Shown here piece after piece: positions 19,207 through 41,480 of a DNA stretch of 64,000 bases (its first letter is position 1; every line of letters starts with the position of its first letter). Source of the stretch: Isoetes taiwanensis (lineage: Eukaryota; Streptophyta; Lycopodiopsida; Isoetales; Isoetaceae). Position numbers and translations under genes: made by a program. The notes below the pieces were generated by a model that saw only the letters and a list, made by a program, of their open reading frames with translations, had not been told where the DNA came from and did no database searches. The stretch covers positions 3,025,275 to 3,089,274 of the forward strand of contig JAJEKV010000020.1 of NCBI GenBank assembly GCA_021234155.1, given 5' to 3'.

Positions 19207-19959
19207 TTAATTTTTTGGGTGCCTTGTGTCACCCTGAAGGGAGGCAAAGATATTCCCTAAGTTCGCCGCGATCACAGTACTTTGAGCAGCCACTTTAGCA
19301 GCTATTTGTTCATTATTGCTTTCCTTATCAGGCTGCTGATTACTAGTTCCCTCACTAGAACCATCGTCCACTTTTGAATTGGACAAGTCTACGAGACTTT
19401 TGATTGCTGAAGATTTCAGGTTGCCATAAGGGCCTTTAGGAGATTTGGCAAGCACATGCATGAGGAATGGTTCAAGAAAGTCTTTCGCCTGCTCATCACT
19501 CACAAAACAGTGACATCTTCTAACACCCATAAGAGCCTCTCGGGCAATATAACCTCCAACATGAAGCTCCAAGCAGGTTGTATCAATTGGAGCAAATGCC
19601 GGGGGAAATCCATTTTTATTTAAGGGGCCCTTCTCCTTAGTTTGTAGCTCGTACTTGATTTCCCCACTTAGGAGGGGGTCCCGATCCTCATCCTCTTCTG
19701 ACTCATCCTGTTCTGACTGATCCTGATCCGTATGATAGAATATAGTTCTTAAGTCTGGATCATCTAGAAGAAAACATTCCCATGCACTGCTATTGTCACC
19801 CTTGGCCTTAGCAATATCATATTCCTCGTCTGACAGCATGGCTATCATAATAAAGATCACATGTGCCATCTTCCGTTCTGTTCGCAGCTCATTATCCTTA
19901 ACATCATATATTAGGCATCCCTCCCTAATAACTTTGAGGCACTCGGATCATGAGCGTGA
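19207..19959 (-). CDS. ParB-like gene copy 1, C-terminal block
   Basis: An open frame of at least 220 codons from ATG 19869, with in-frame homology extending upstream to about 19,959. It contains KMAHVIFIMIAMLSDEEYD, an acidic stretch (QSEQDESEEDEDRD) and a Ser/Asn-rich tail ending at TAA 19207. The paralogue has KISSFANIILVLLSRGFPYMD at about 36.05 kb in the corresponding place. Between 19,960 and 20,190 the reading jumps between frames (pieces such as DFFTISDRIDNREVLHY), so introns or indels exist there. The frame ends immediately beside the AAAACCAY repeat zone. Confidence 0.55.
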
Positions 19960-20249
19960 GAGATAGTGCATCTTGAGATGTGACTCACCAAGGACAAACG
20001 ATGACAATAGTGAAGGACCTCTCGGTTGTCAATCCTATCTGAGATGGTAAAGAAGTCATTTGTAGTCCTTCCGGTTCATGCCCATATCTCCTCTCCCACC
20101 CCTGCTGTCCAACACAAAGAGTGATATATTTTTAAGGCCAGAAGTTGATTCTGGCAAGAGACCTTTGTACCCAATGGAGACTGAATACTGGACAGCACTC
20201 AACGAAGGACATTCTATCCTTAGTGAAAGCACTCTTCTTGTATAAGACT

Positions 20250-20696
20250 TCCTTCTTTAAGCACTGGTCTAAAACCCAAATGGTCTCAAAGATCGCCTAG
20301 CCCCCTCGAGTCTTTCTCATCTCTGTCACATTCAAGTCAAAGATGCTTACATCAACAGGAGGCACCCTACCCATAGTATCTGGCAGCTTCCTTTGTGCAT
20401 AAGCGTCCCAGAATTCATTCCACTTTTGCCATACTGCCTCCTTACAAAAGACAATCTTATACGAGTCTGTTGGACCTGACCTGCTAGATGAGCTTTCAGA
20501 AGGATCTGCAATGTCATCACCACCTTTTTTCTTTGATTTTCTTGTAGTTTTCTTCTTCTCCTGTATAATTGTCTGCGACAGAGTCCGCTCCAGCAGCTTG
20601 AAAGCCTCAGACTTTGACCCGCCCTGTCTGGTGGGTAATGGGCAGCCATATTCCACCCACTGTTGACGGGCGTGGCGCAGTTGCTCCACGTATGGA
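20250..20696 (-). CDS. ParB-like gene copy 1, exon 3
   Basis: After the acceptor the frame reads PYVEQLRHARQQWVEYG, a Lys/Ser-rich linker, SYKIVFCKEAVWQKWNEFW and MGRVPPVDVSIFDLN. A TAG occurs at 20297-20299, after which the same frame continues with AIFETIWVLDQCLKKE. The paralogue on 36.4-37.73 kb matches every block: PYTDQRIHAR.QW, YDLLLCNEKIWQKWTEIW and MGGSTPVYISKSEID. The exon's downstream limit is unclear because frameshifts appear below about 20,190. Function of this part is unknown. Confidence 0.6.
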
Positions 20697-21119
20697 CTGC
20701 CAAAAGTACAGGCATTGAATCAGTATCAGAGACAAGAAACACGCCGGGCGCGATTTCAATAGAAAAGAACAACCTCAAAGCACGCCTGGCGTGAAATGAA
20801 TTAAATACCAATGCAATTCACGCCAGGCGTGCTTTCGAATCGGTTGAATTTACGCCAGGCGTGCTTTCGAATCGGTTGAATTCACGCCAGGCGTGATTTC
20901 AAATGAATTGAAATCACGCCAGGCGTGCTTTCAAATCAAATCAATTCACGCCAGGCGTGCTTTAACATTTCACGCCTGGCGTGAATTGGTTTGATTTGAA
21001 AGCACGCCTGGCGTGATTTGGTTTCATTACAGGAAATCACGCCTGGCGTGAATTGGTTTCATTTGAATGAACGCCTGGCGTGAATATGAAAGTGCTAACA
21101 TCCTAATACAGTTAGTTAC
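20697..21119 (-). other. Intron 2 of ParB-like gene, filled by palindrome array
   Basis: A 423-bp phase-2 intron with donor GTAACT and acceptor TTTTGGCAG. Joining AG with the next T gives a Ser codon and the reading LYKSPYVEQLRHAR. The paralogue has the equivalent Ser junction (SPYTDQRIHAR). Most of the intron is an array of 13-bp palindromes. Confidence 0.7.
20740..21082. repeat. Array of 11 palindromes, core CACGCC(A/T)GGCGTG
   Basis: Copies start at about 20740 (degenerate), 20781, 20819, 20851, 20883, 20915, 20947, 20971, 21003, 21038 and 21070. Most intervals are exactly 32 bp. Each is a 13-bp odd palindrome; the central base is A in copies 3-7 and T in copies 2 and 8-11, so the array has opposed halves. 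Spacers are also partly inverted (TTTCAAATCAAATC against GGTTTGATTTGAAA around 20930-21000). It would fold into nested hairpins in RNA and offers 32-bp-phased symmetric sites in DNA. It looks superficially like a CRISPR but the spacers are not unique. Confidence 0.93.
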
Positions 21120-22305
21120 CTTTTGTATAGAAATGTCTTCCCCATTTCATTCAAAGTTGCACTAATCTCAGCCAAATCTGCAGGTGAAGTATTGGCATCC
21201 AAGATACGACACCTCCTATACGTATAGTGATTGTAGAACGCATTTTGGCATGTTTGTTCTGCCTTCCTGATAAGGGCCTTCTGTGCCTCAACAGAATGCT
21301 GCCCGTCGATGACGACGAATTTAATGTTCTCCTTTAACATTATATCCTCGAAGTTCGTCCACTCAGCGGGCTTGTTCGAGATCATATCCCAAGGTAACAC
21401 ATCCGCTGGCATAGGCATTTGACCTGGATTACTAATCATGCTCTGAACAATCTCCATGTCATGTGCTGGATCATATCTTCTGCTAACATAAATGGAGCTT
21501 GGTGAACGGATGAGGGACTTCACATGGATCGCAAAAGTTTCCTTAAGACCCAATGGATAATGGTCAGAGTATTTATTCAGCTTGTTCAAGGCCTCTAGCT
21601 GCGCCACCCTGTCCTGTTCATTCTCAAAAATAGAAGCCTCCATGCCTTCGACAACTGCAGGTTGAACATCCTTCCCTAGATCTAGGACCCTCCTAGAAGC
21701 TTTCAAGTCAGCTAATTCCCTAGCTTGCTGCAAATAGTGACTTGCTGTCAGTTTAGTGAACATGCCTCTACGCACAGCTGTTACCCCTTGGCAAATAGAT
21801 ATTGGCGTAACTGCTACATTGGTTGGCCAACCATACTTAAAACATGTCTCACCGTTCACATCTGTCTTCATGAACGTATCCTTGTATGCAGTAGCTCTAC
21901 AATGAGTAAGTCTGAGCAGATCTTTCTTTTGCTTATGTGTAATCTCCAAGAGCAATTTGCAGTTGGTGTCATCCTCTTCCTCACAAGAGATTAGGATCCC
22001 TTGTTTGATCATCTTGTCTGCTTCCTTTTTCCTCGAGAAGAGAGTTAAGTCGAGCTTGCCATTTGTCTTGGCAAGGTCAACGTACTACTCGGCACCCTCA
22101 TCCATTTTCTCTTCAGGGAAGGCAGGGTCAGTGGTTGCTATAAGAATCGGCCCTTCATCATCTAAGGTGAGATCATATGGTACTGTATCTGGGTCGTCTA
22201 CCTTTGCTTTCTTGGCAGGATTAGAACCCGAATTATTAGGGGTTTTCTTCCTCTTGGGCACTGCATTGAACATTGCTATCTCCAACTGTCTAACACTGCT
22301 ATATT
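21120..22305 (-). CDS. ParB-like gene copy 1, exon 2 (IDGQH domain)
   Basis: About 395 codons, opening EYSSVRQLEIAMF, with a basic cluster KRKK and AKKAKV near the start, one in-frame TAG at 22085-22087, and then a long uninterrupted stretch of 298 codons. The ParB-like domain lies near the end: NPGQMPMPADVLPWDM, then FVVIDGQHSVEAQ, then CRILDANTSPADLAEIS. The exon ends TACAAAAG/GTAACT, phase 2. The paralogue at 40.4-40.95 kb aligns along the second half, including HYPLGLKETF/DYPLEIDHKM and IDGQH, and has the same end and phase. Conservation of the core suggests it was under selection before decay. Confidence 0.65.
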
Positions 22306-22499
22306 CTATAAAACAGAGCAAAATTATGTTCTACAAAATGGACAATCAGAGCATTAACTGATGGTAATACTTAAAATTCATGCAAAGCATAATAACTCAA
22401 ACTCATGCAAAGCATATTAACTGAAGGCAAGGAACTATCTCAAATTCATGCAAGCATAATACTCTCCACACAGTGTGTATTCTGTGGCAAATTAAATAC

Positions 22500-22635
22500 C
22501 TTGAATAGGGTTCTGTGTATTCTGTGTATTCTGATCAACGTCCTCTGAAGCTTGAGAAGTGCCAGGTTTTGAGATCCCTCTTCCACCGCTTCCTCTGCCC
22601 CATCCGCCTCGACCTCCTCTCGTTTTAGAAGACAT
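22500..22635 (-). CDS. ParB-like gene copy 1, exon 1 (Gly/Arg/Ser-rich N-terminus)
   Basis: The exon starts at an ATG (22635) and encodes about 45 residues beginning MSSKTRGGRGG, rich in Gly, Arg and Ser and then Gln/Asn. It ends at a donor reading G/GTATTT. Splicing to an acceptor TTTTATAG at 22306-22307 continues the frame (phase 1). Upstream, two 24-bp direct repeats (AATAGC.TTTTCTACCTG) lie at about 22697-22747, and a TATATATG string is near 22805. RG-rich tails often bind RNA or act as nuclear signals; that is only a family generalisation. Confidence 0.55.
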
Positions 22636-22979
22636 CTCCGGAGTCGCCTAGTAACAGAGTCGGAAGGTCGCTCGGATACGCGCTCGAGCTGCTCGAAGAA
22701 ATAGCTTTTTCTACCTGTACGAGAAATAGCGTTTTCTACCTGCACGAGGGAAATTTGAATCTCAAGAAAACACAAAATGCAGTTTCGAAATATTCTTGAC
22801 ACATATATAAAAATAATAATGACGAAGATTCACTTTCAAAAAAAAAAAAAGAACCCGTCCGCCGACTTCTTTCATTGAGTTTTTAAAAACCAATCTACCG
22901 TGTTCTTTCATTGATTACATTTATCCCGCCAAAATGTAATTAACCTAAGCTTTCTTGTAACTCGAATTTTTCCCGACCG

Positions 22980-24075
22980 CCTGCGTTTCCATAGCGCCTG
23001 TGATTTCGAGAACTCGAATCGGCTTCTCAAGTTCTGGTAAGCATCTCATTCCTATAGCTTGTATAATAATTTCCAGTAAAGGTGTCTGAATAGGCAATTG
23101 TCTGCAGTGTCGAAGATGAATGTTTCATGTTAACTACAAATCAGAAAAGGAAAGTAGGATTATGCAAGATCGACTCCATCGATCCGACTGCAAACTGTCA
23201 TGGAATTCCGCTCGGGGATAAGTATGTCCGAAAGTTCTGATGATTAATCTTTGCTATGGATGAAGCTTTACCTCGCAGACACCCCAAAGGGGATACGGTT
23301 GGAGAAAGTGTTGGAACATTTGTTGCATGGCCAAGAAACCGCTTAAAAAAGGTATGTAACATGTATTACATTGTAGAAATATAGAAGTAGACAAAATTTG
23401 TTGTATTCATTGGAAAAAGTTTACAATTGTATATAATCTGGAGAAACTGGATAAACCATACAAAATCCCGATTCTTTGTTTCAAGCCCGGGTCCATTGAG
23501 TAGCTGGGCTATCGATACTCCCATTTCCATTGCAGGGCATAGTGAATTCTTCTGGTAAAACCCCAGCAAAAACACCATGCTCTAGCTCCACCTCCCCCGC
23601 CTGCTTCACCTCCACCACCTGGTCCACCTCCTGCTCCTCCTCCTGCTCCATTGGTTGAGCCATCTCCATTGCATCATTATCTGCTTTGTGGTAGTGGTTA
23701 GTGTTGGGTCATCCGGGGCATAGAGGCTAACCACTAAGAAACACAGCTCCTCATTTTGAATCTCGAAATGACAGATCACGAGATTCACTCTCGATCAATG
23801 CATGTACCGCATTCTCCGAGTGATTAGATAAGAGGGCCACCCTCCGATGCGATTGCAAGGGACTCGAGCCCGGATCTATCATTGCCCCGCACTCTGCTTT
23901 GCCATCATCATTACTTGATCCAAGTACTCCGGGGGTTGCAAGACCGGTGCTCCAGCCCGGTGGTGCTCGGCCGCGGTTCAACCGGGTTGGAGATTGGAGC
24001 CGAACACGAGCTGGGGTCGTGTGATTGCTGGCCCAAATGTAATTCCAATGCATCTTCGTCACCAACCGGGTGATT
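22980..24075 (+). pseudogene. Possible divergent plus-strand gene remnant
   Basis: Three weak coding-like pieces lie downstream of a possible non-coding exon ending CTG/GTAAGC at about 23037. They are 23256-23351, opening at an ATG, containing GESVGTFVAWP and ending at an AAG/GTATGT donor; a Pro-rich piece near 23565-23690; and a Ser/Arg-rich piece near 23870-24030. VAWP-type strings occur in plant transposon-linked proteins, a weak hint. Frames do not join cleanly. It may share a bidirectional promoter with the ParB-like gene. I would not insist that it is a gene. Confidence 0.3.
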
Positions 24076-24123
24076 AATGTAACTTGGCATCTATCAATAG
24101 GAAGTGAGCGGAGTATCAGTATT

Positions 24124-24237
24124 CACGCCTGGCGTGTTATGTTTATTTATTTATAAACTTAGAAACTAAGAGACACGCCCGGCGTGTTTAGCTTAAAAGT
24201 TGAAACTAGGGATAAAATTGTTTGCACGCTCAGCGTG
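24124..24237. repeat. Three dispersed palindromes of the CACGCYYRGCGTG family
   Basis: CACGCCTGGCGTG at 24124-24136, CACGCCCGGCGTG at 24174-24186 and CACGCTCAGCGTG at 24225-24237. Spacing is about 50 bp. They have the same arms as the intron array (CACGC / GCGTG) with a varied three-base centre. Another copy lies in each arm of the adjacent foldback (24264-24276 and 24434-24446). Confidence 0.9.
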
Positions 24238-24260
24238 TAAACTGCTATATAGGAAAAACT

Positions 24261-24449
24261 ATACACGCTCGGCGTGCATTCAGCAGAGAGAGAGAGAGAA
24301 AAAAAACCTGTACAGATAGATAAGTAAATAGATAAAGGCCAGGCAATTATCTACAGCGTGTAGATAATTGCCTGGCCTTTATCTATTTACTTATCTATCT
24401 GTACAATTTTTTTTTCTCCCTCTCTGCTGAATGCACGCCGAGCGTGTAT
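24261..24449 (-). ncRNA. 189-bp near-perfect foldback, candidate small-RNA precursor
   Basis: Arms of about 93 bases pair almost without mismatch around a tiny GCG loop at 24351-24363 (CTACA-GCG-TGTAG). The arms include CACGCTCGGCGTGCATTCAG against CTGAATGCACGCCGAGCGTG, an AG-rich against CT-rich segment with a few unpaired bases, and a long GATAGATAAGTAAATAGATA stem. A transcript from either strand would give a long stem like plant MIR or inverted-repeat siRNA precursors. A TATA promoter pointing this way lies about 570 bp upstream at 25025-25031. A MITE-type DNA foldback is the main alternative. Confidence 0.65.
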
Positions 24450-25024
24450 TCATGTTGAAGGCTAAGGTTAGCATAAATATTATCTTTCAGATTTTTCTAA
24501 TGCTTTCTACTACACTTATTCATAATAGAAACTTGCATGCAATAGCATAATTAATTCAGGAAGAGAAACTCAAGAATTTACTCGAAACAAAAAGAAGCAG
24601 ATGAAGTTTATAAAAAACTATTCTGGTTTTCATAAACATCATCTGCTTCCTCTGCCTCGTGCAAATGCAAAAGCTTGTCTTCTTGGATTAAACCTGCCAT
24701 TGAGATGCAGCTTAAAACTAAATGAAAACTAACCTTGAGTTCTGAGTTCTGCTTTTGGATTTAATTCCGAGGCTTTCGGATTCGCAGACCTTAGTCCTCT
24801 GCTTCTGGTTTTAATTCCGATGTCCTCTGCTACAGATGCTACAGAACAAAAGGCGGAGTCTTTTAGTAAGTTAGGAATTGCCGAAACCAAACATCTAACA
24901 TTGCTGAAAATAAATCGGCTCACCAAGATTTTAGGAGGGCGGATCTAAACACAGCAGAAGCGCAACCGGCAAATCGTATGAAGGAAGGAAGAAAATGTAG
25001 GAACTTTGAGAGCGTGAAATGGAT
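24450..25024 (-). ncRNA. Possible spliced non-coding transcript leading to the foldback
   Basis: Downstream of the TATA box on the minus strand there are plausible donors (CTTG/GTGAGC near 24924 and CAAG/GTTAGT near 24732) and only a 65-codon frame with no resemblance to a protein. An internal duplication of GGAATTAAA-CCA-AAGCAGA is seen near 24760-24815. The simplest reading is a primary transcript of the foldback, but no direct evidence of transcription exists here. Confidence 0.35.
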
Positions 25025-25092
25025 TTATATAGGCATAATTAGAAATAAGTTAGCGTGAATAATTGATTGCTTGAATTAACACGCCTGGCGTA
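25025..25092 (-). promoter_or_regulatory. TATA promoter with upstream palindrome (first of a pair)
   Basis: Minus strand: TATATAA at 25025-25031 in the context CCTATATAAATCC, and CACGCCTGGCGTA at 25080-25092, 49 bp upstream. The stretch from about 25000 to 25177 is homologous to 31700-31855, including AGCGTGAATAATTGATTGC and a final AATAAATTCTCACG. The paralogous copy drives the acidic-protein gene, which supports this one being a real promoter. Confidence 0.65.
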
Positions 25093-25177
25093 CGGTCTTC
25101 CCGCCAGACATGACATGTATATGATGTATATGGTATATATGGAGAATATTGCATTTTATGCAATAAATTCTCACGAC

Positions 25178-25507
25178 ATTTTATTCCATTTATTGCATTC
25201 GAAAAAATAGAATTTAGAAATTTTATATAGGCTAAATTATAAATGATTTTAAAGGCAAAATTATCAAGGCTAAAAAATGACTTGTAGGGTTGGGGACTTG
25301 TTTTAGGTCGTATAGGAAAATTTCCCTATGGTTACTGTGATGAATCAGAGATTTTTCATGTGGTTGATTTATAGTGTTCCGGAGACTTTGTTGAGACAAA
25401 TGCAGAGACAAAACTTTAGAGAAAACAGCAGACGAACAGGAGACAAAATAATTGGAGAAAACAGTTGGATTTAATTCAAATAATTTTATGTACAGAAAAA
25501 CTGTTCG
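25178..25507. other. Gene-free flank of the Copia insertion
   Basis: No gene is recognised between the 25.1-kb promoter and the Copia. The stretch AAAACAGTTGGATTTAATTC near 25458 resembles AAAACTGTTTGATTTCATTC on the far side near 31055, so the insertion site may itself be a small duplication. Confidence 0.5.
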
Positions 25508-25512
25508 AAGAA

Positions 25513-26111
25513 TGTTGAAATCTGGAATCATGTGATATTTGTAAGTTTGAATGGTTGTTGAAGATTTACAGATATGCATTCCATGGTTAAACAGGTTATA
25601 CAATTAAGCTAAGGTATAAGGGGATTAGGGACCATATTTTGGCTCCCCTTATTCAAGCTGTGTTGTGAAGAATCTATGGTTATAGTTATGTGATTGAATT
25701 TGAATATTCAAAGAAAGATGAGGTTCAATGGTTCGGGTAGCCGAATTTTTAACCCAGGCCTGTGGGATATATGGGTGTACACAGTTTTCACAGAAGGCAA
25801 GTCTATCTGGCTCCATAACCGCCGGATCGACTGTATATAGAATGGAAAACTTGATATAATATATACACTGAGATTGATGAAGGCGGTAATGCAGATTATA
25901 CAGTGTTCTTGAGCTATCAGCAGGAAACAAGTCAAAGCCCGAGCTACCTTAACATATTGAATGACTATTGTTGATATTTAATGGTTAAGTTGTATTCTAG
26001 AAATTTATTGAAGGTGAATTTGCTTAAGGGGGAAATTAATCTATGACTTTAAATTGAAGTGCTTAAGGCATAGATTAAAGTTAAGTCATTAGATCTGCTA
26101 AAAAAACCACA
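25513..26111 (+). repeat. Copia 5' LTR (599 bp)
   Basis: Begins TGTTGAAATCTGG and ends AACCACA. Same length as the 3' LTR. Differences noted by eye include GAATCT/GAACTT (two), GATGAGG/GATAAGG, GATATATGG/GATATGTGG, CACAGAAG/CACGGAAG and CGACTG/CGGCTG. Confidence 0.96.
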
Positions 26112-26112
26112 A

Positions 26113-26124
26113 TGGTATCAGAGC
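26113..26124 (+). other. Copia primer-binding site (initiator Met tRNA)
   Basis: TGGTATCAGAGC lies one base after the 5' LTR end and is complementary to the 3' end of plant initiator methionine tRNA. Confidence 0.95.
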
Positions 26125-26139
26125 TCAGGTTTGGTAATC

Positions 26140-26895
26140 ATGACAACAAGGTTTGGAGCAAATTTGCTGAATTCAATTGAAATCTTCAAAGGGGATGGAG
26201 GATTTCAAATCTGGAAGGAGGGCATTAGAAGCGTGCTTGAATTTGAAAAACTTTGGTATCTAATTAATGGCAGTTCAGTTGTGAGTGCAGGGGCATCCAG
26301 CTCAGGTGGTTCAAGTCCTGCTGCTAGTTCTAATACTCAATCTGAAGAAGGTTCAGCAACTGCAAGGGTGTCTCAGGCAGGGGGAACACCTGCTAGTGCT
26401 AGTGCTGAAGGTGAAGAAGCTAAAATTATGGAAGCTCAAGCCATAATTATGTGCAAAGTAGGAACTCCTTTAAAGCTGAAGCTTCGAGGCATGAAGCCTA
26501 AGGAAATGTGGGAGTATCTGGTTAAACATTATGAACAGAAGAGTTCCTCACAGATAGATATGTTAGAGAAGGAGTTAAGGAAGATGAAGCTTGTTGAAAA
26601 AGATAACCTAACTAACTTCTTAGAAAGGTTTGATTCTATTATTGCAGATCTTGAGGGAGCTGGCAATATCTTGAGTGAGCAGTATCAAATCTTGGCCTTA
26701 GCAAGGGCAGTTTCCCATAATAGTCATTTGGCAACCTTGCTCAGAAATGTAGCCAGTTCTAAGGAACATGCCATTAGAATGATGAATTTGAACAATCCAG
26801 TGTTGTACAAGATGAGGCAGAACAATCTGCAGAAGTATTGTACACTGGTAAGGCTAAAAAAGTTGGTTTTAAAAAATTTTCAAAAGGACAAATAG
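26140..26895 (+). CDS. Copia gag (capsid) region
   Basis: The first ATG, at 26140, gives a frame opening MTTRFGANLLNSIEIFKGDG. Copia gag landmarks follow: FKGDGGFQIWKEGIRSVL, a Ser/Ala-rich spacer, and an MWEYLVKHYEQKSSSQIDML segment of the retrotransposon gag family. It packages the element RNA in cytoplasmic particles. The frame loses homology after about 26805, where the pol frame one base back reads naturally (EAEQSAEVLYTGK). Either a one-base deletion or a -1 frameshift separates gag from pol; single-ORF copias make the mutation reading more likely. Confidence 0.9.
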   Translation: MTTRFGANLLNSIEIFKGDGGFQIWKEGIRSVLEFEKLWYLINGSSVVSAGASSSGGSSPAASSNTQSEEGSATARVSQAGGTPASASAEGEEAKIMEAQAIIMCKVGTPLKLKLRGMKPKEMWEYLVKHYEQKSSSQIDMLEKELRKMKLVEKDNLTNFLERFDSIIADLEGAGNILSEQYQILALARAVSHNSHLATLLRNVASSKEHAIRMMNLNNPVLYKMRQNNLQKYCTLVRLKKLVLKNFQKDK

Positions 26896-31213: not shown

Positions 31214-31667
31214 TCATTGATCTTCCACGTCTGCAACAAAGAAGAAAGAAAGGTGTTAGAAAAGAAAGAAAGGTGAAAGAAATAAAATAAAAGCAGACAT
31301 GCAAACCTGGTTTATCTCTCAACCATTCTAAAAATTGGTCGAATTGTCGATTTTCTTCCGAATCTTCTTCCTCCGCCTCCTCCTCCTCCTCCTCCTCCTC
31401 CTCCTCCGACTCTTCAGAGATTTTATTCTCTGTTTCAGGGTCAAGCCAACCCTGAAGCAGAGCGGTCATGTGTTCTTGAGAGGACATCTCCTCCTCTTCC
31501 TCCAACTCCTCCTCTTCCTCCTCTTCATCCTCTGAATCGGAATCAGAGGAGAATTGGGAAAGAAAATCTATGAAGGGGGGGAATTGAGCGGGTTCTTCAA
31601 CCCGACGTCTCTTTGAAGAGACCTCGGGTTCTTCATGAAGCTCGAGCGCTGAGGCTGAACGCTTCAT
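31214..31667 (-). CDS. Small acidic nuclear-type protein, two exons, 125 residues
   Basis: Exon 1 is 31307-31667 and exon 2 is 31214-31230. The donor CCAG/GTTTGC and acceptor TTTGTTGCAG join in frame to give a terminus DKPDVEDQ. The protein starts MKRSASALELHEEPEVSSKRRR, a basic nuclear-localisation-like cluster, then has SSDSDSEDEEEEEEE and a second Glu-rich block, with FIDFLSQF, MTALLQGWLD and FDQFLEWLRDK as short hydrophobic motifs. ATG lies about 60 bp from a TATA box. I recognise no family. Acidic proteins of this type often bind histones or act as activators, but that is a guess. The Copia inserted in its 3' flank. Confidence 0.6.
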
Positions 31668-31724
31668 GACGGGCAGAAAAAAAAAATTTGGACAGAATGG
31701 AGGTCTTGAGAGTGTGAACCGGAT

Positions 31725-31788
31725 TTATATAGGGTTAATTAGAAATGAGCGTGAATAATTGATTGCCTCAAATAACACGCCAGGCGTA
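31725..31788 (-). promoter_or_regulatory. TATA promoter with upstream palindrome (second of a pair)
   Basis: TATATAA at 31725-31731 (context CCTATATAAATCC) and CACGCCAGGCGTA at 31776-31788, 45 bp upstream. The surrounding 31700-31855 is homologous to 25000-25177. The palindrome is the same family as the array in the ParB-like gene intron, which links these three loci. Confidence 0.7.
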
Positions 31789-31855
31789 CGAAATTCCTGC
31801 CCTCTATATCATCTAGGGTATATTATTATATGGATAATAAATTCTCACGTCTATC

Positions 31856-32143
31856 AGTTATATATGTCTTTTCGTAATCATGTATCCAAATTTTCGATAA
31901 TTAAAATTTGGATATATTTATATAAATGTCATTTCCTTGTTGTTGCCACAAAAATTCTTGTTTTAAATGATTTCGTTTACACCCATTGTTATTATTATAT
32001 TAAACCTATTTCCAAGGAATTTCTTGCTTTTAAAAAATTGGATTTACCTCTACATATTCCATAAATGTACGTACTTTTTTTTATCTTATATGGTGTAATA
32101 ATTTTTTCCTACTCATTGACTAAAAAGGGTGCAATTTGCCTAG
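31856..32143. other. AT-rich spacer, no gene seen
   Basis: AT-rich sequence with no convincing frame. Its right end, TTTGCCTAG just before 32144, looks like a splice acceptor for the next gene, so an upstream exon or intron of that gene may lie here. Confidence 0.4.
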
Positions 32144-33973
32144 GTCAATGGTGCCTCTCCAACTCAAGATGGTGTGCAACATATTGAAAAGAGCAATATC
32201 AAGGAAAAACCAACTCCTAGCAAGAATGTTGAAGAAAAACAATTAATCCTCTATAGTAGGGTGCAATGGAGGAACAAGAAGGTGAGAATCATGCACAAGT
32301 GCAACAAGGAAATAGTAGGCCAAGGAGTCATTGTGCTAGCAGATCCTGGTCAAGCTGTTAATGATGAAAGGCTAGGGGACAATATTGGTATTGCAATTTT
32401 GATGTTGGAAGACAACTGGAAAGGTAAAGGTTTGGGTGACAAGGAATGTTTTGGTTGTGTCAAGCAATTGGAGGTTCCTTGCATCATGGCATGGCCTATA
32501 AGTAGTGTTCAATTTGTGGAGGATTATATTTTTCCAGAGCCTGAGGTTGTTGGGGACAATGATTGTCTTGATATTGATCCATTGGCAGTTGGAACTCTAA
32601 ACCTAGGCAAAAGGGGAGAAGTATCAGTTGCCAGACATTATCCTAGCAAAAGAGCCAAGTTGATTAGTGACACCAAACGTGAGACAATGGTGAAGGTTAG
32701 GGGCTCAGATTGTTGTTGGAGTGCTTGTATGCAATTCTTTACAATAGAACAATTGGTGGAAGCAAGAGCCACTTTTCAAGAGTACACTGTTGATGAGAGG
32801 AGGACCTACATGTACACAATCTTCGAGCATGCACTTCAGGATGAAAGAAACCCAAACAGAAAAAGATGCCCTTTGCTAGGCAAATGGATATGTGCAAAAG
32901 CATGGCAGACTATCCATGCAATTCCAACTTCTTCATGGCATAATTGGCAAAAAAAAAAGGCAGAGGGGAACAGGATTGCTTTACATGGAAATAATGGTTT
33001 GTTGAGACCAACAGCTAGGACCTTGGCTGCCAGGGAGATATTTGAAAAATATATTGATTTCAATGCAGAGTCTATGCCACACAAAAGCAGAAGGGATGAA
33101 AAGGGAAGAGCAGTTGTTGAGAAAAGGTTGCCATCACATTGTACTCAAAAGAGTATTTTGGAAGAAGTGAATTCCCTACTTCGAGAATTGGGAATTCTTC
33201 CAATATCCCAACCTAGCTTTAGTAGGTTATGGAAGAAGCATTTCAATCATGTCACCATAGCAACTTCAAACAACTTTGCAAAGTGCAATTTATGTGCTAA
33301 GTTGAAGGAGACTCTTGATAAGACTGTGCAACCTAGTCAAAGGGCTAGGATAAGGGAGCATATGAAGGACCATATGACTGACCAACTATCATGTAGATCA
33401 TGTTATTGGATGTGGAGGACTTTATCTGCATTGGAACCCAATAACTATTTATACATTATACATGACAAGATGGACCAGCAAAAGACTTGTCTTCCACAAT
33501 TCAAGTACATACCAAAGTCATGTGGAAGATCATACCCTTTACAGATCTCAATGACTAGGGCAATCTTGCATGGGCAGACTCAAACCTACTATGGCCATTT
33601 TAGTTTGGAATTGTGGAGTGATGGTCCAGATTTTCATATTGAGAGTATCATGAGGTGTTTGAGAAACTATGAAAATGGATATGATGGTCACCTCCAGGAC
33701 CCTACAGCTAGCCAAGCACTACATAGAGCATTGTTAGATGGAAACCCTAACAATATTGAAAAGTTCAGCAAGGCAAGGTTTAGGAAGCATGGGTCTAATG
33801 AACATGTTGGAGCTTCAACTTCACGTGCTAGACCTCAAGATCTACCCAAAAGGTTTCTCTTGCAACTTGATAATTGTGCTGGCCAAAATAAGAACAGGTG
33901 GATGTTTTCTTTCCTATCCTACTTAACAGCTGTGGGGATATTTAGGGTTTCTTATGCCCGGGCATACCCATGA
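32144..33973 (+). pseudogene. DUF7869-like (putative transposase-derived) gene, main block
   Basis: About 600 codons. A domain with SDCCWSACMQFFTIEQL and CPLLGKWICAKAW is followed by a cysteine cluster (CNLCAKLKET, CRSCYWMW), then IIHDKMDQQKT and LLQLDNCAGQNKNRW. These last two, with GHTHEDVDA in the next frame, are the signature of the plant/animal DUF7869 family, with spaced acidic residues suggestive of an RNase H-fold transposase (inference). The frame enters at a probable splice acceptor TTTGCCTAG at 32143. The only nearby starts are non-ATG or internal, so an upstream exon is likely. A one-base frame change at about 33950 ends this frame before HTHED. Confidence 0.7.
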
Positions 33974-34727
33974 GGATGTGGATGCATTATTTGGCAAATA
34001 TAGTTGTATACTGAAGCAGCAGACAGTGACCAACTTTCCTAGGCTAATGGAAATCTTGCATGAATGCACTACTCCAAACCCTATAGCTTCTCTCATAGAA
34101 GAAGTGCCCAATTGGAAGAGCTTTGTGGATGGTTATACATTGGACCTTGAAGGTCATTCCAGGCCTCTGCAGTTCACTTTTTGGGTGAGAGATGGGATTC
34201 CAATCTTCCAATGGAAGATGAGACCTTTAGAGGATGAGTGGAGAGGAGGGGAGGAAATATGGCGTAGAGATGAGAATGGCAAGCCTATGGTACCTCCAGG
34301 TCAACCAAAAGCTCTAAAACCTACTGAAGAAGTGAAGCAATTGGGATTGACTAAGGAAGGAATCCAGGACTATATAAAGCATTGGCAAACCAATCCAGAT
34401 GACACCAACCGTGCCTTGGTGGCTTACTGGAAGAAGGTGATTAACCTGTTGGGGGAGATAGACATATCCTCAGATGAATTGAAAGAAGGGTGGTTGCCTA
34501 AAACTAGGTGGAAGACCTTAGCAGGTGCTGAGGATGTTGATGACACTGTAAGTAGCATTCGCAAGCAATATGCTCCTCCTCCTTCTGACAAACACTATGT
34601 TGGTCCTAAGAACAATAGGCCAAAGTTTCTAGGTATGGATGCTTATGAACCTTCCACTGACTTGGAATGCCACCAATTTGTGGTAGTAAAGCCAGCAGAT
34701 TTAGATACATATCCAGTGTGGTTATGA
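33954..34727 (+). pseudogene. DUF7869-like gene, continuation after frameshift
   Basis: Begins MPGHTHEDVDALFGKYS, completing the motif begun in the previous frame, and continues for about 250 codons with QFTFWVRDGIPIFQWKM. It stops at 34725-34727 only because a 79-bp tandem duplication shifts the frame. The upstream break is a single-base indel near 33950. Confidence 0.75.
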
Positions 34728-34800
34728 ACCTTCCACTGACTTGGAATGCCACCAATTTGTGGTAGTAAAGCCAGCAGATTTAGATACATATCCAGTGTGG
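34643..34800 (+). repeat. 79-bp tandem duplication inside the coding region
   Basis: TTATGAACCTTCCACTGACT begins at 34643 and again at 34722, and the two 79-bp copies look identical. Because 79 is not a multiple of three, the duplication shifts the frame and creates TGA at 34725. The perfect identity implies a recent event, or an assembly artefact. Confidence 0.93.
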
Positions 34801-35103
34801 TTGGGGTTCACTATTTCTGATATTTGCAAAGAAGAAGGTAATATTAACTTCAACCATGTGCGGGTGGAATGGTGGTGTCCAGTGCATCAGTTGACCAATG
34901 TATCGGATAAAGAAAGGTACTCAGATTGTTGGACAAAGAGATGGAGGAGAAATCCGAGTGATCCTGATATTTGGCTAGACTATGAAAGTGTTTTGTACTC
35001 ATGGACTCCAAACACTATTCCAGCTAGAAATGCGAGAATTACAATACCTCGGGATGTCAGGAAGAAGGCTATGATATCATTGGGGGTACTTGAAGAAAGT
35101 TGA
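34741..35103 (+). pseudogene. DUF7869-like gene, C-terminal block
   Basis: About 120 codons ending at TGA 35101-35103. It repeats ECHQFVVVKPADLDTYPVW from the previous block and then continues to a C-terminus with VEWWCPVHQ and WTPNTIPARNARITIP. Frame arithmetic shows that one copy of the 79-bp unit would leave this continuous with the preceding block. Confidence 0.7.
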
Positions 35104-35301
35104 ATAACTATGTAAATTTTTGTTATCACGTTTTTATGATATGGTGCTATATTGTGAAATATTGACTATTTTGTAAATAACATGATATTACGTTTTCATA
35201 ATTTTTAGGTGAAATGTGAATTTGAATATGCTACTAAAAACATGCAATATGAAATTTGTCCCAAAATTAAGACATAATCCCAATTTAATTGAATGATGGT
35301 T

Positions 35302-35397
35302 TTCTTGATTTTTCTCGGAGCCTGCTTCCTGATTTTTCTCAGAGTCTACTTCCTGATTTTTCTCAGAGTGGTGTTCCTGACTTTTTTCAGAGTCATA
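35302..35397 (+). repeat. Four tandem copies of a 24-bp unit
   Basis: The unit TTCCTGATTTTTCTCAGAGT plus four variable bases occurs four times without gaps. In one frame it encodes an eight-residue repeat like LLPDFSQS. No larger gene is evident. It lies in the 3' flank of the DUF7869-like gene. Confidence 0.85.
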
Positions 35398-35525
35398 TTC
35401 CTGAATTCGTCATGGGAACGATGAAACATGATCAGACAACTCTGATAGTAACACCAAGGATGATAAAACTGGGTGAGCTGTTTGAGCGAATTTCCTGAAA
35501 TGATGCTAGTTACCAATGTTAATGA

Positions 35526-35551
35526 GGTTCTCGACTCGCGAGTTGAGAACC
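35526..35551. repeat. Single 18-bp-type palindrome at the C-terminal flank of copy 2
   Basis: GGTTCTCGACTCGCGAGTTGAGAACC, with the core CTCGACTCGCGAGTTGAG, is the same palindrome family as the arrays at 37.8-38.1 and 41.3-41.4 kb. It sits outside the gene's 3' end, about 280 bp from the last homologous block. Confidence 0.85.
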
Positions 35552-35830
35552 AGGGCATCCAATGAAAATATGGTAAGTGTGCTCATCTCTCTCTTATTCT
35601 TTCCAGCACTTGCTCCGCCGCCTAGTCTCCCATGCCTATCAAAAGATCCTCTGGGTTATCTTGGTTGTTGCCCACCTGCTCCTCTGTTTTTTCATCCTCA
35701 ATTGTTGACTCATTCTTTTTATTCACAAAGTGGTCCATGTATGACTTTATCGGGTCAACAAGGGCTTTGTCACCAACTATTGATATTGGCTTCATTCCAT
35801 ATAATATAGCCCCTTAGGAGAAAACTCGGT

Positions 35831-37733
35831 TCATGTACCACTCACACACGATCTGATCATCTTCGACCAAACTCGTAACAAATTACTTGATAACCTGGGA
35901 CATATTGATATCTTGTGGATAGCACTTGTGCTGCCATCCGTGCTTACCTTGTCAAAAGATAACACATCCTCCATGGATTTCCCGCCCTTCCAGAGATCCA
36001 GATTCTCGTTCGAGGCGATGAACTTGTCCATATATGGGAATCCGCGAGACAGTAAAACCAATATAATGTTGGCAAAACTTGATATCTTTGAAAGACCGAC
36101 TCTGCACTCACATTCTAACTCATATATGGAATAAACGATTCTCTTGTGGAAGTTAATATCTGCTGCCCATTGCAAACTACTGTCGTCTGATTGCCAGACA
36201 TGTAGAAGATAAGGAAACTGAAATTATACAGTTCTGTCATATCCAAATAGGTCTTGTACCACTGGTCTAGATCAGCCTTCTCATAGAATAAAGTCGGATT
36301 TTCAATCATATTCATGAAAAATAAGGACACAGACCATCTGCAAGTTTCTCTGGATCCCTCCCCAGTGCCCGGTACTATGGATCCTATAACTCCTAATGAC
36401 CAGGTACTTTGCCACTCCTTAAACATATCTTACTATACACCTTATTGACATTGGCATTTACCGAGACGAAATGCCCTTCACCTCGAATGGTAGGTGTTAT
36501 CGAATTATGAGCCCTTTTCGAACAAATAAGTGTTTTTTCAATTTGAAGAATCTCTGAAGAATCCTTGAAAATGGATATCCAATGGCCCATATATGCATGT
36601 GTATTCGGCGATGATCTCAGAATAACCAAACTAGACTTTGCTCCAGTTTTATCATCGAAGGCCGGGCACCGAAGCTTGACTCGTTGACGAAGTGATCCTC
36701 TCGGTCCCCCTCCTGAGTGGCCATCCCATGTAATGGTTGGGCAGCGAGGGGGCTGCGTCCGACGGAAGTTAGATTGGTCGATTTCACTCTTCGAAATGTA
36801 CACAGGTGTCGAACCCCCCATTTCCGCCTAAGATACGTGACCGATTAGGTCATTAGATCACATCACATTGTTTGCTTTCCCCTCTCCTTAGCCAGTTCAG
36901 TTCGGGACTTGTATTGCATGCAGTTAGTTGCCAGAGGCTAGTTCCAATCCACCAAACCATTGTGACCTAATGCCACCAAGTACGGTGGAGAGCTCGAATC
37001 TACTTTGAAAGGCACGATGCCGAAACCCAGCTTGCATTTGAGAAGTACTTGAGCACGCTCTGGAAACAGTTATGTTTTGACACTTCCATACAGTTTGATG
37101 TTGATGTATGGTTGGCACAATCGTTTTAGCTCCTTCATGACCATCCTCAAGCTTGGCCTTTTCCTTGAAGTACTCAAAATCCTGGCTCTCGTTGCAGGCA
37201 ACGTTGTAGAATTCTGCGATGTCGTTCTCTAATGCATGCGTCCTCTTTAGCACCATGGCATAGTCCTTTTCATTTTGCATCTTTGAGCTTCTTATTTTCC
37301 TCAGCAATATTGAGCCATCCAGTATTTTGCTTTGCAAATCTAGCGTTCTCTTTTCCTCAAGCCGTGTATCCTCTTCATGAATTTTTGTCAAAGCGTTTTG
37401 GACCTGGTCTCTGTGGCAACTCTTTATTACTGTCCTTCAGAATACCCCTTTGCACAAAGCCCAGATCTCAGTCCACTTTTGCCAGATTTTTTCATTGCAC
37501 AGTAACAGGTCGTATTGGTCTGATAGCGATTCCCTACCTTTTTTATAGGTTTTTTTTTCTTTCCACCTTCATCATCGGCTTCATCGTCTTGGTGGTGCTC
37601 TGTAAGTACAAACCTGCACAGCCTCTCAAAAATCTTCCATTTTTTGGAAGGCGCCTTGTTTCCTCTGGGCTGTTGCAGACATCTCAATGCCTTCCATTGC
37701 TACCTTGCATGTATTCTTTGGTCAGTATAGGGG
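35831..37733 (-). pseudogene. ParB-like gene copy 2, C-terminal half (minus strand)
   Basis: After an acceptor CATCTGCAG ending at 37734, the sequence reads SPYTDQRIHAR, TAG (37700-37702), QWKALRC, then KIWQKWTEIW (frameshifted), MGGSTPVYISKSEID (36.8 kb) and KISSFANIILVLLSRGFPYMD (36.05 kb). Each matches exon 3 or the C-terminal block of copy 1 in order. It also contains about 120 codons with coiled-coil character (KIHEEDTRLEEKRTLDLQSK onward, 37.0-37.4 kb) that copy 1 lacks. Several frameshifts and stops make it non-functional as written. Its N-terminal half lies on the opposite strand at 39.7-40.95 kb. Confidence 0.7.
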
Positions 37734-37767
37734 CTGCAGATGTAAGATTCAAGTTAGTTGAGTGATG

Positions 37768-38160
37768 CTATGATGCCTCTGGGTTATATAAGACTAGACA
37801 TGAGGACTTTCTCGTCTCACGAGTCGAGAAAGTGCCCTCTAGGGTATAAAAGACTAGATATGAGGAGTCAAAAAAGTGCCCTCTGGATTATAAAACACTA
37901 CATGAGGACTTTCTCAACTCACGAGTCAAGAATGTGCCCTCTAGGTTATAAAATACTAGACATGAGGACTTTCTCGATTCGCGAGTCGAGATAGTATCCT
38001 TTGGGTTATAAATGACTAGACATGAGGACTTTCGCGACTCGCGAGTCAAGCCCCTTGAGGTTCGAAGGAATTGAACTTGGACACTTTCTCGACGTAGCGA
38101 AAGTGCCCTCTGAGTTATAAAAGACTAGACATGAGGACCTTCTTAACTCATGGGTAGATA
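37768..38160. repeat. 60-bp-period array of an 18-bp palindrome
   Basis: Units contain CTCGACTCGCGAGTCGAG or variants plus GTGCCCTCTGGGTTATAAAA-GACTAGACATGAGGAC. Palindromes start at 37811, 37913, 37973 and 38033, with degenerate ones near 37870, 38088 and 38139. Intervals of exactly 60 bp occur twice. It begins immediately upstream of the copy-2 exon at 37733, so it occupies the same intron that holds the 13-bp array in copy 1. Confidence 0.92.
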
Positions 38161-38199
38161 GAACTGCGTCAGCTTTGAAGGCGAGGTATGACGAAGCAA

Positions 38200-38700: not shown

Positions 38701-38719
38701 TTTTTTCTTCATAATCTGG

Positions 38720-39170: not shown

Positions 39171-39407
39171 CTAAATGACATCCAGACCTCGATATGGCAC
39201 AATATTTTTGTAGTGCTTTCCAAGTGCATTTGCTTCCGCGGTCGGCTTCATCAACAAGGCATCGGGTTGAATGACTTGAATCAGCGCGATTCGTGTACAT
39301 CCTTTCTCCATGACAGTGCAGTGAAGAAGGCCCATGGACTCGAGCTCATCCCCCACTACTATCTTATTTCCGCAGGCCATCGAGCAAATCGTCTGAATAT
39401 ACCACAA
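39171..39407 (-). pseudogene. Short protein-like fragment, unrecognised
   Basis: A 78-codon minus-strand frame opening MWYIQTICSMACGNKIVV and ending YKNIVPYRGLDVI has balanced composition and looks protein-like, but I recognise no family. It could be a captured gene fragment. Nothing around it supports expression. Confidence 0.25.
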
Positions 39408-39710
39408 GCCTATGTCAAAACAACCCTACCCAAATGCAAGCCTGAATCATGCACAAATGCAAGCTCATAGGTTTGTGTGCATTTGAAGCGCCTGTGCCTA
39501 TTGTTAGTGGAAGGTCTAGTGGGAGTCGAATGTGCGATCTTTGAGGCTTCATGATACCTCCTGCTCCGGTCAAATTGAGGCCCGCTCTTCCATCAATATT
39601 TTAAAATATGCGTTTAGGCAGGCTAAGGATGCCCGTGATGTACCCAGCAACCTCTTGCGTGCGTTCAATGATTGCAGATATTATTTGAAAATTTAAGATA
39701 ACTTCCTTTG

Positions 39711-40949
39711 TGTGCAGTCCTCAACTCACAAAATCCTCACGGCAGAAGAGCACTTCTGGAGGTGCAACTTCTAGCACCAAGCGTCGAACGTCGGAGTATG
39801 TCGGCTCCATCAAATAAGTGCTCTTCCAAAAAAGATCGTTCATCGGTCAGCGCAAAGAAGAGAAGGCTTGCAAAGCCAGGTAATATCTCAATTATGATGT
39901 CTTTCTAGAGCGGGTCCAATTAACATCTGTTTTTATTAGGTTTTTCTTCCTTTCTTCGTCATAGAAGGGCCGCAGACACAACAGCTTGATGAGACCTCGA
40001 TGGATTGTTGGTGGTATAAGGAAGTGACAATGTCCAGAAAAGAGAAAGATCGATAAGAAAGGTTCCACAAAACAAGAAGGGCCGATTTGTGTTGTCTATC
40101 GTTGCTCCAGATGATTAGCATCTGACCTTATACATTGAAGATATGTCGAAGGGCAAGTTCTACCATACCAAAAAATTATCGGTGCTGAATTACTCCTCTT
40201 CTTCCATGAGCAAAGCCAAGGGAACGGACAAAAAGGTTGCACATGTGAATTGCTAGAGTCTGGGATGGAAAGATCTGGAAGGCATGAAAGAGGAATGCAC
40301 TCTAACTTCTAGGGAGCTAGGCATGGAAATCTCCAGGGGCCTTCACATCCAATGTGTTGAAGAGTATAACACACTCTGCGGTCAACTAAGTCGTGGTTCA
40401 AAGTGAGGACAAGAAACAGAGTGAAACATGGATGATGAGTCAAAGGATGAGGAGGACATTGACTCCCAGTTTTTGGACCCAAACAAGAAAATGAAGCTGA
40501 TGCAGAGGGACGCTCAGAAAATTGAAAGATTGGCCCAGGACTATCCATTAGAGATCGATCACAAAATGAAAATTGATATAAGAAGACTCAAGGTATGCAC
40601 TGGCAATGCCGTCTTGTTTAACCACAAAGAGTTCAATCCAACCCATATATTGGAGATCCTGAATTTAATGATACATCATCCTATATATGGTAGATCCGAT
40701 GCCAGCCGACTTGATTCCTTTTAAGAAGAAAACTAGTGAATTATTCAGTTGGAGCACGGAAGAGAAACTGAAGAGTAAAGATGTGAGGTTCTAGGTTATA
40801 GATGGCCAGCATCCAGTGAGAGCAGCACAGGTGTTGCAGACGGAGAAGGATGTCCCCTGCAGAGTGTTGTCAGCGGACACTCCACCCATTGAGCTAGCCA
40901 GCATCAGTCACTGCCAGAATACCATCGCTGCAAGTGAAAGCTACATCAG
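39711..40949 (+). pseudogene. ParB-like gene copy 2, N-terminal half (plus strand)
   Basis: After an acceptor TTTGTGTGCAG there is a basic stretch (KRRTSEYVG; SAKKRRLAKPG), then degraded homology, then LAQDYPLEIDHKM, NLMIHHP, MPADLIPFKKK and RF, TAG (40792-40794), VIDGQHPVRAAQ, CRVLSADTPPIELASIS. This aligns with exon 2 of copy 1 throughout. The exon ends ACATCAG/GTACTG at 40949, phase 2, exactly matching the phase required by the minus-strand acceptor at 37733. Further stops (for example TAG 40254-40256) and frame changes show decay. Confidence 0.72.
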
Positions 40950-41480
40950 GTACTGAATATTACCATCTCCGAAATTTAGAACTTAAAGTGGTCCTCATGT
41001 GCAGTCCTTTATAACCAGTGATGACTTTATCATCCTCTAGCTGCTTCTAAACTATAGAAATAGTGGCGATTGTTTCCTATTTTTCCAACATTTTTATAGA
41101 AAAGAATTTAGTAGAATTGGATGTTTTACCATAAAATTGAGGTTTTTACTGTAAAATCTTCATTAATTTGGCGAATATATTATAATTGGGATGCAATGTT
41201 ATCAAATTTTGGCGATTTTATGAAGTATGCATCCCAGTAAACCATCGAATCCATATTTTAAGAAATGGTAAAATATAGCAACTTTACGAAGTTTCACACC
41301 TTAAAGTCATCACTGTTTATAACCCAGAGGGCACTTTCTCGACTCGCGAGTCGAGAAGATCCTCATGTCTAGTCGTTTATAACCCGAAGGGCACTTTCTT
41401 GACTCGTGAGTTGAGAAGATCTTCATATCTAGTCATTTATAATACGGAGGGCACGACCACAATGTTTTACAACCTCCCTC
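40950..41480 (+). other. Intron remnant of copy 2 with inverted palindrome array
   Basis: Sequence after the donor at 40950 is non-coding. It contains two units that are the reverse complement of the 37.8-38.1 kb array, with palindromes CTCGACTCGCGAGTCGAG at 41338-41355 and CTTGACTCGTGAGTTGAG at 41398-41415, 60 bp apart. This is the other half of the intron interrupted by the inversion. Confidence 0.8.

Follow-up and report, generated by a model that had tools for sequence, protein, structure and literature searches.

CACTA (En/Spm) elements with TnpA are two-protein transposons that combine an accessory DNA-binding protein with repeated short motifs, and VANDALs are MULE elements. VANC, the anti-silencing protein of Arabidopsis VANDALs, carries DUF1985/DUF287 and is less conserved than VANA (PMC5735166, PMC10398659). 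Repeats of a motif, which is the 9-mer YAGTATTAY for VANC21, lie upstream of VANA21 as well as within VANC21 and VANB21 introns (PMC5735166, PMC10398659).

In this study, we analysed a stretch of 64,000 nucleotides from Isoetes taiwanensis (hereafter the window), which includes a transposon with two genes, A and B, and arrays of short palindromes. Like VANDALs with VANC, this element encodes a second protein, it has short tandem motifs that lie in introns and other non-coding parts and change between related elements, and its probable transposase is more conserved than its putative accessory protein. In C1028, the only element in which both genes were compared with the window, gene A was 71% and gene B 47% identical. 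The Isoetes element differs from VANDALs in its DUF7869 gene, in its DGQH-core protein, which has a NIF exon, and in its palindromes of 13 to 28 bp. Furthermore, anti-silencing is established for VANC, whereas in the Isoetes element we infer it from sequence.

The likeness to CACTA elements lies in the two-protein organization, the repeated short motifs and the accessory DNA-binding protein, which is putative in Isoetes. However, the Isoetes terminal inverted repeat (TIR) starts with AACCATC and not with CACTA, the target site duplication (TSD) is 4 bp, and the arrays are internal, intronic and palindromic. In addition, gene B shares a short DGQH core with the bacterial and phage ParB/DndB (DGQHR) proteins, and the clustered palindromic sites are analogous to parS. 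However, gene B is eukaryotic, has exons and introns and lies inside a transposon, it can be aligned over about 32 columns only, and GQHS stands in place of GERR, the canonical box of CTP-binding ParB.

The transposon and its copies

The high-copy palindrome-carrying element, whose host is Isoetes taiwanensis, is a cut-and-paste DNA transposon of ~12 kb with the termini AACCATCAT. We found its 31-bp TIR at 3,170 genome ends (1577 + 1593, ≤2 mismatches; control 0), and the TSD was 4 bp in all ten elements with both ends read, including C80 of lineage I and C74 of lineage II. These TIRs and TSDs identify it as a transposon, and together with the thousands of ends they demonstrate the mobility that the preliminary description had considered possible for a ParB-like element. 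The element includes the DUF7869 gene A and the divergently oriented gene B with the IDGQH exon, and fuller copies have a NIF-phosphatase exon at the 3′ side of gene B. There were at least 76 matches of gene A and at least 126 of the gene B exon in the genome. By comparing the coordinates of gene A and gene B matches, we found the divergent linkage, besides the window, on ten contigs (C1075, C996, C363, C948, C1045, C96, C1080, C907, C1074, and C1078).

Copy 1 in the window belongs to lineage I and is oriented on the minus strand. Its remnant spans 19229–35301; the gene B side, with the 3′ end, was cut off near 19229 by another repeat, and the gene A side reaches the right TIR AACCATCATTCAATTAAATTGGGATTATGTC (35271–35301, minus strand), the same 31-bp repeat as at the genome-wide ends. 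A copia LTR retrotransposon (25510–31027, plus strand, LTRs 98.8% identical) is nested inside as an intruder separate from the element. Gene A, the presumed transposase gene, lies on the plus strand, its first part at 32174–33970 (DUF7869, E = 2e-11) and its second part, past a frame break, at 33954–34724 (DUF7869, E = 1e-14). Gene B lies on the minus strand and has a probable first exon beginning with MSSKTRGGRGGWGRG (22495–22647) and the exon with the IDGQH core (21119–22084; 322 aa as translated, with the final G belonging to the intron GT). Directly after this exon comes the array-holding GT..AG intron (20697–21119), followed by a further exon (PYVEQLRHARQQW...; 20300–20696) and by a truncated later coding part (19210–19947), from which the NIF exon has been lost. 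Near 20194, ~270 bp found in other copies are absent from copy 1. A missing intron of copy 1 at this point was considered and then dropped, as the corresponding stretch is coding in locus L037.

The array of CACGCCWGGCGTG (20740–21082) includes 11 sites (≤2 mismatches), mainly spaced by 32 bp, in an A-centred block and then a T-centred block. This agrees with the earlier report of a 13-bp palindrome with a 32-bp period in the intron right behind the IDGQH exon. Further 13-mer sites start at 24124, 24174, 24264 and 24434 (24124–24446), the last two inside an inverted repeat (24261–24449), and the site search found others on the gene A side, to the left (25080–25092) and right (31776–31788) of the copia element. 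With ≤2 mismatches, there were 18 copies of the 13-mer in the window versus 0.30 expected.

Most of the other genomic copies also carry palindromes in the intron after IDGQH, as the first description led us to expect. Intron sites were found in 28 of 30 close copies, and in the remaining two (L028 and L030) homology to the window stops before or within the intron. Of 17 more divergent copies, 15 had them as well (L068 has a few degenerate sites and L081 none), and so did three of five lineage-II loci, where L096 breaks inside the exon and L098 is sequence without gene B. In 36 of the 52 copies, those with both exon borders found, there were 183 perfect palindromes (arm ≥6) in 15,363 nt of intron, versus 14.1 after shuffling (60 shuffles per copy) and 2 in 14,861 nt of adjoining exon. 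The count was above all 60 own shuffles in 28 of these copies and not in the other 8. A matrix of 254 sites has a conserved 13-bp core (1.33–1.85 bits) with mostly weaker flanks. The array size varied from 5 to 16 sites per intron among the introns counted, and sites were also present outside the DGQH intron, including the intron preceding the NIF exon.

Site lineages and the relic copy 2

Each lineage has its own palindrome in the intron that follows the DGQH exon: CACGCCWGGCGTG in lineage I, AAATCGCGCCWGGCGCGATTT in lineage II, and CTCGACTCGCGAGTCGAG in lineage III, to which copy 2 belongs. There were 714 forward and 726 reverse sites of lineage I, 1,553 of lineage II, and 2,179 of lineage III in the genome, and the controls gave 0–1. 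From lineage I to lineage II, both half-sites shift symmetrically from CACGCC..GGCGTG to CGCGCC..GGCGCG in most array sites (187 lineage-I and 14 lineage-II sites compared). Meanwhile, gene B of lineage II is 47% identical to that of lineage I. Among 50 distinct listed lineage-II sites, 23 lie on contigs with listed TIR positions, and all 23 lie inward of a TIR at a distance of up to 13 kb: 13 at 1.52–1.82 kb, 8 at 3.78–4.01 kb, and 2 elsewhere. In the lineage-II element C74, the first range is just before the NIF exon and the second is the DGQH intron.

Lineage III retains gene B and part of gene A (31% identity over the part compared), and its sites occupy the same intron and two other places. 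Because this lineage was reached via its palindrome, the presence of the palindrome in it is circular, and the evidence from lineage III is limited to the position of the sites beside the DGQH exon and the linkage to gene A.

Copy 2 is an inverted relic from this distant lineage. In comparison with the lineage-III copy C426, 35738–37738 aligns one way and 40104–40856 the opposite way, thus an inversion lies within copy 2. The first stretch comprises the later gene B exons (35738–37738, minus strand; two blocks that are 67–68% identical to C426 at the DNA level), and the second belongs to the 5′ portion of gene B, which is inverted and includes the DGQH exon VIDGQHPVRAAQV (40104–40957, plus strand). 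The array is split into part 1 (37776–38050), with four 18-mer palindromes at spacings of 102, 60 and 60, and part 2 (41315–41454), with two at a spacing of 60 bp. The site search also found a lone 18-mer past the 3′ end of copy 2 (35530–35547), and with ≤3 mismatches there were 7 copies of this palindrome in the window versus 0.01 expected. Copy 2 had been thought to align with copy 1 block by block; the DGQH exon is present, but the gene is not intact and the inversion splits both gene and array. Likewise, the 60-bp period assigned to the 18-bp array applies to part of it, as the spacing of 102 is also present, and the palindromes of the two copies are indeed unrelated in sequence.

The proteins of gene B and gene A

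Gene B was originally described as ParB-like. The support for this kinship is limited to a short DGQH core and sub-threshold matches, and no ParB-family profile matched above cut-off. In a Pfam scan of 17 gene B members (E ≤ 1), ParB families were absent, and DndB was found below threshold in 10 (best E 0.0018). The same scan gave DUF6742 in 14 and the SPT8 beta-propeller in 11, both seemingly unrelated families. An NCBIfam scan of three gene B proteins found no ParB profile, and PHROGs gave a ParB-like match to the window protein at E 0.047. The comparison of gene B with seven phage proteins by hhalign gave 85% over 32 columns; two of these carry a ParB-type annotation, and Pfam on five gave four DUF6551 and one ParB_N below cut-off. 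When the DndB/DGQHR profile was searched against the genome, all of the 25 best matches fell short of the cut-off, at E 0.24 or worse. Among them, 24 lay at profile positions 37–127, and the 7 that were checked by coordinates were gene B. In the gene B alignment A3, G261, Q262, H263 and S264 are invariant, which is where ParB has its GERR-type CTP-binding box.

The AlphaFold model of gene B (mean pLDDT 39) is too poor to judge the fold, and a Foldseek search with it returned nothing at E ≤ 0.001. Searching PDB sequences with the gene B exon yielded no ParB, and no relative turned up when viral contigs were scanned with the gene B alignment. The plasmid/phage tblastn search gave weak matches only, one of them to a phage ParB-like protein (30 residues, E about 1). 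Furthermore, Pfam scans of gene B parts found no DNA-binding domain and none of the VANC domains DUF1985/DUF287. The NIF exon would be spliced into gene B. In its motif, DLNGVL, Asn occupies the position of the Asp that is usual in active phosphatases; thus, catalysis by this domain is doubtful.

Gene A, probably the transposase of the element, matches DUF7869 at E about 1e-36. Its structure model (mean pLDDT 28) is too poor to judge an RNase H fold, and the term DUF7869 was absent from the papers searched.

Possible roles of the palindromes

We propose that this is a two-gene TIR transposon in which gene B binds, as a dimer, palindromes in its own introns and relieves silencing or controls transcription, and we give this explanation an even chance. 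Gene A (DUF7869) would be the transposase and gene B the accessory protein. The arrays would expand and contract through unit duplication, the sites would be homogenized within each lineage, and the site sequence and gene B would diverge jointly, so that each lineage's protein would recognize its own element only. Such self-recognition would most likely serve to relieve host silencing or to control element transcription, like VANC for VANDAL, and the NIF-type (polymerase-II-CTD-phosphatase-like) exon ending gene B would be in keeping with a transcriptional role. The binding, the dimerization and the function, including anti-silencing, are what we infer from the sequence patterns. An intronic set of own sites whose sequence switches by lineage, as first suggested, is thus seen in three lineages, and the sites would be cognate to gene B. 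Nevertheless, the co-divergence by lineage fits gene B, gene A or mere shared ancestry alike as the partner of the palindromes. It is possible, yet we think doubtful, that the system is independent of VANDAL and that a ParB/DGQH-fold protein with a CTD-phosphatase-like domain acts in anti-silencing via co-evolving intron palindromes, with the lineages orthogonal to each other.

CpG retention is only suggestive as a sign of anti-silencing. In 35 copies, the observed/expected CpG ratio was 1.29 in array introns, 0.84 in array spacers and 0.51 in the exon, and it was 0.07–0.16 in three gene A frames. Since other non-coding parts keep their CpGs too (0.96 in the gene B 3′ UTR, 0.77 in the gene A-side non-coding region), this retention is not special to the arrays.

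First, the gene A transposase might bind the palindromes, using them as assembly sites or internal enhancers, with gene B co-diverging as a passenger of the same element; we consider this rather unlikely. Some sites lie between the two genes or on the side of gene A, a half-site-like GGCGTGATTT is close to the TIR on the gene B side at 7 of 8 listed ends, and gene A diverges between lineages too (71%; 31% over the part compared). However, the lineage-I element C80 and the lineage-II element C74 have a common TIR despite different palindromes, and the arrays are kilobases away from the element ends.

Second, the arrays might work as RNA, with each intron folding into an extended hairpin that gives rise to small RNAs or governs splicing. 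This is a serious rival to protein binding, although we judge it improbable. All 35 folded introns were below their shuffles (12 each; z −4.5 to −33.6, mean −16.3), with a mean z of −0.45 for the adjoining exon. Every intron tested has inverted arms of 21–107 nt, and usually the A-centred block comes first and the T-centred block second. Strong folding of these introns is likely anyway because the units are palindromic, and a hairpin requires complementarity, not one fixed sequence of 13 to 21 bp at hundreds to thousands of sites. The likeness of spacers was 0.671 for nested hairpin partners (n = 85), which exceeds the 0.602 of other opposite pairs (n = 479) but not the 0.688 of adjacent same-orientation units (n = 178). 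The C6–G8 pair, once considered as an argument against RNA hairpins, was dropped, as A- and T-centred units can pair together.

Third, the arrays could be non-functional satellites amplified with the element, their palindromicity coming from replication slippage and inversion. The widely varying unit number (5 to 16) and the inverted repeats within arrays fit this view, which is nevertheless very unlikely given the same intron in three distant lineages, the conserved core beside a variable spacer, the sites at other fixed positions and the retained CpGs. Finally, in a true eukaryotic ParB/parS-like system, gene B would load as a CTP-dependent clamp onto the intron arrays and from there spread along the element. 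This would account for the DGQH core, the weak DndB and ParB profile hints and the clustered short palindromes, but has the slimmest chance, with GQHS in the place of the GERR box, profile hints no stronger than those to seemingly unrelated families, and no ParA gene noticed incidentally.

If gene B binds its intron arrays, then sequence-specific self-recognition encoded by an element would have arisen in plants a second time, apparently independently, and here in a lycophyte. With three natural protein/palindrome pairs, the joint change of protein target and sites would be directly testable, and orthogonal DNA-binding pairs would become available. Furthermore, a ParB/DGQH-like domain would have been put to use within a eukaryotic transposon.

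Ends, genes and copy number of the transposon

The array-bearing region of the window is a DNA transposon, and the suspicion of the preliminary description that a mobile element is involved proved right. When the genome of 1,658,258,908 bases in 1,110 contigs, in which the window occupies C1019:3025275-3089274, was searched, the terminal inverted repeat (TIR) was found 3,170 times at up to 2 mismatches (control 0), and target duplications of 4 bp were present in all ten elements read at both ends. Judging from the TIR positions, nine of these ten elements are 12.1-12.4 kb long and the remaining one (C146) is 4.3 kb. By sequence, C80 belongs to lineage I and C74 to lineage II; the window itself holds a lineage-I element (copy 1) and a lineage-III relic (copy 2).

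Gene A is a plus-strand gene with a match to DUF7869 (E about 1e-36 in the relatives L085 and L087); in the literature covered we found no paper on this domain. The gene is divergent from gene B, which lies on the minus strand and contains the DGQH exon. There were at least 126 genome matches of gene B and at least 76 of gene A, and among the matches listed, comparison of the match coordinates showed the two genes linked and divergent in this way on another ten contigs. The true gene B end and its TIR were revealed by alignment of copies beyond the truncation of copy 1 near 19229, and the matching right TIR is located at 35271-35301. The truncating sequence is a separate repeat (18500-19229), and of the 42 genome matches of the query 18500-19700, 34 stop no more than a few bases from 19229, at query positions 727-738. 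In addition, a copia LTR retrotransposon with LTRs 98.8% identical is nested in the gene A side (25510-31027), and a perfect tandem duplication of 79 bp (34643-34802) is found near the gene A end. Elsewhere, the window contains two 98% identical blocks of 5.5 kb (6561-12062 and 10393-15907, spanning 6561-15907) and a perfect TCT microsatellite of 68 units (43217-43420).

Palindrome arrays and their lineages

The array intron of copy 1 (GT..AG, 20697-21119) contains 11 sites at up to 2 mismatches. The array after the DGQH exon, first described from the two window copies, recurs in others: among 30 close copies, 28 had sites in this intron, and in the remaining two, homology stops before or within it; of 17 more divergent copies, 15 had such sites. 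Both borders could be located in 36 of 52 copies. The introns of these 36 add up to 15,363 nt and contain 183 perfect palindromes, against 14.1 in dinucleotide shuffles and 2 in the exon (14,861 nt); in 28 of the 36, the count exceeded all 60 of the copy's own shuffles. In a matrix of 254 sites, 13 positions form a conserved core (1.33-1.85 bits); the positions around it are mostly weaker (0.2-1.6 bits), with the highest values in the nearest AT flanks.

The preliminary description had also proposed that the site sequence switches between lineages, and this is borne out. Lineage II (L094, gene B 47% identity) has AAATCGCGCCWGGCGCGATTT and lineage III (C426, L089, L090 and copy 2) has CTCGACTCGCGAGTCGAG, both in the intron following the DGQH exon and both different from lineage I; C426 carries CTCGACTCGCGAGTCGAG at two further places. 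From lineage I to II, most sites show a symmetric change, A2 to G and T12 to C (A2 90% and T12 91% of 187 lineage-I sites; G2 93% and C12 79% of 14 lineage-II sites). The copies L068 and L069 (gene B 55% identity) have related, partly asymmetric sites, some of them spaced at 30 bp in L069. Genome-wide, lineage I gave 714 forward and 726 reverse exact 15-mers (control 1 and 1), lineage II 1,553 sites at up to 1 mismatch (control 0), and lineage III 2,179 at up to 2 mismatches (control 0). The gene A part of lineage III is 31% identical, and a TIR of its own was not found. A lineage I/II-type gene A end stands just before a lineage-III gene B end in L090/L092 (C426:56000-62737) and at 35236-35738 of the window. 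Furthermore, a lineage-II gene B is broken within its DGQH exon by sequence carrying another array, GTGTATTCCGGAATACAC, at about 42-bp spacing (L096:1400-1560), possibly another array-bearing element.

For contigs C38-C170, which carry 23 of the 50 distinct lineage-II sites listed (of 1,553 in all), the positions of sites and TIRs were compared. All 23 lie inward of a TIR and within 13 kb of it: 13 of them at 1.52-1.82 kb, another 8 at 3.78-4.01 kb and 2 elsewhere. In C74, a degenerate lineage-II element, the shorter distance falls just 5′ of the NIF exon (1569-1087), where degenerate sites stand at 1624 and about 1697, and the longer one corresponds to the DGQH intron (3734-4103). Lineage I has sites of mixed CGCG/CGTG type in the same 3′ intron before the NIF exon.

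Coding capacity of gene B

Pfam gave no match over cut-off for the DGQH exon. DndB appeared below threshold in 10 of 17 gene B members (best E 0.0018), a signal weak by itself because DUF6742 (14 members) and an SPT8 beta-propeller family (11 members) appear as often. Against the whole genome, the best 25 matches of the DndB profile were all below cut-off (E 0.24 or worse); 24 of them fall on one common profile stretch, and 7 are gene B by coordinates. The hhalign comparison of the gene B alignment with seven phage proteins, reached via a phage ParB-like match, gave 85% over 32 columns around DGQH; of five of these proteins run against Pfam, four have DUF6551 and one has ParB_N below cut-off. 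A low-confidence structure model gives a strand-helix-strand-helix order from residue 180, which carries no weight for the fold.

The 3′ exon, presumably joined to gene B by splicing, matches NIF phosphatases (E=1.8e-15). It is absent from the window copy, is retained in C74 (tblastn E=2e-12), and its motif was found in 8 of 10 lineage-I loci, as VVVFDLNGVL in 7 of those 8.

Proposed recognition of the element through its sites

The pattern of the sites suggests that a dimer recognises the element in a sequence-specific way: a fixed palindromic core is repeated in introns, its sequence is lineage-specific, both half-sites change symmetrically, and the sites were confined to the element in the sample checked. 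RNA folding counts against this protein-recognition reading: all 35 introns folded were more stable than shuffles (mean z -16.3 vs -0.45 for the neighbouring exon), with inverted arms of 21-107 nt. Spacer similarity was 0.671 for nested partners, 0.688 for adjacent same-orientation units and 0.602 for other opposite pairs.

Judged from sequence, the preferred candidate partner of the sites is gene B, because it houses the main array, its core also occurs in DNA-binding families, and it is less conserved than gene A in C1028, the one element compared (47% vs 71% identity).

The CpG observed/expected ratio was 1.29 in array introns, 0.84 in spacers and 0.51 in the DGQH exon; the gene B 3′ UTR (0.96) and the gene A-side region (0.77), also non-coding, were both above exons. 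The CpG-rich array introns fit protection from methylation, but selection on the core could explain them just as well. Gene A frames are extremely CpG-poor (0.07 at 32174-33970, 0.07-0.16 in three relatives; gene B exons 0.51).

In the literature on ParB-like proteins, NIF, Sola1 with 4-bp target duplications, VANC, anti-silencing and palindromes, with subscription journals mostly uncovered, we recognised no such element. The closest likeness is to VANC, the anti-silencing protein of Arabidopsis VANDAL transposons. VANC motifs form tandem repeats in VANC21 and VANB21 introns and upstream of VANA21, and differ among related elements (PMC5735166; see also PMC10398659). The present element closely resembles that system in having site repeats in introns that change between related elements, and a dimer would recognise it sequence-specifically via its palindromic sites.
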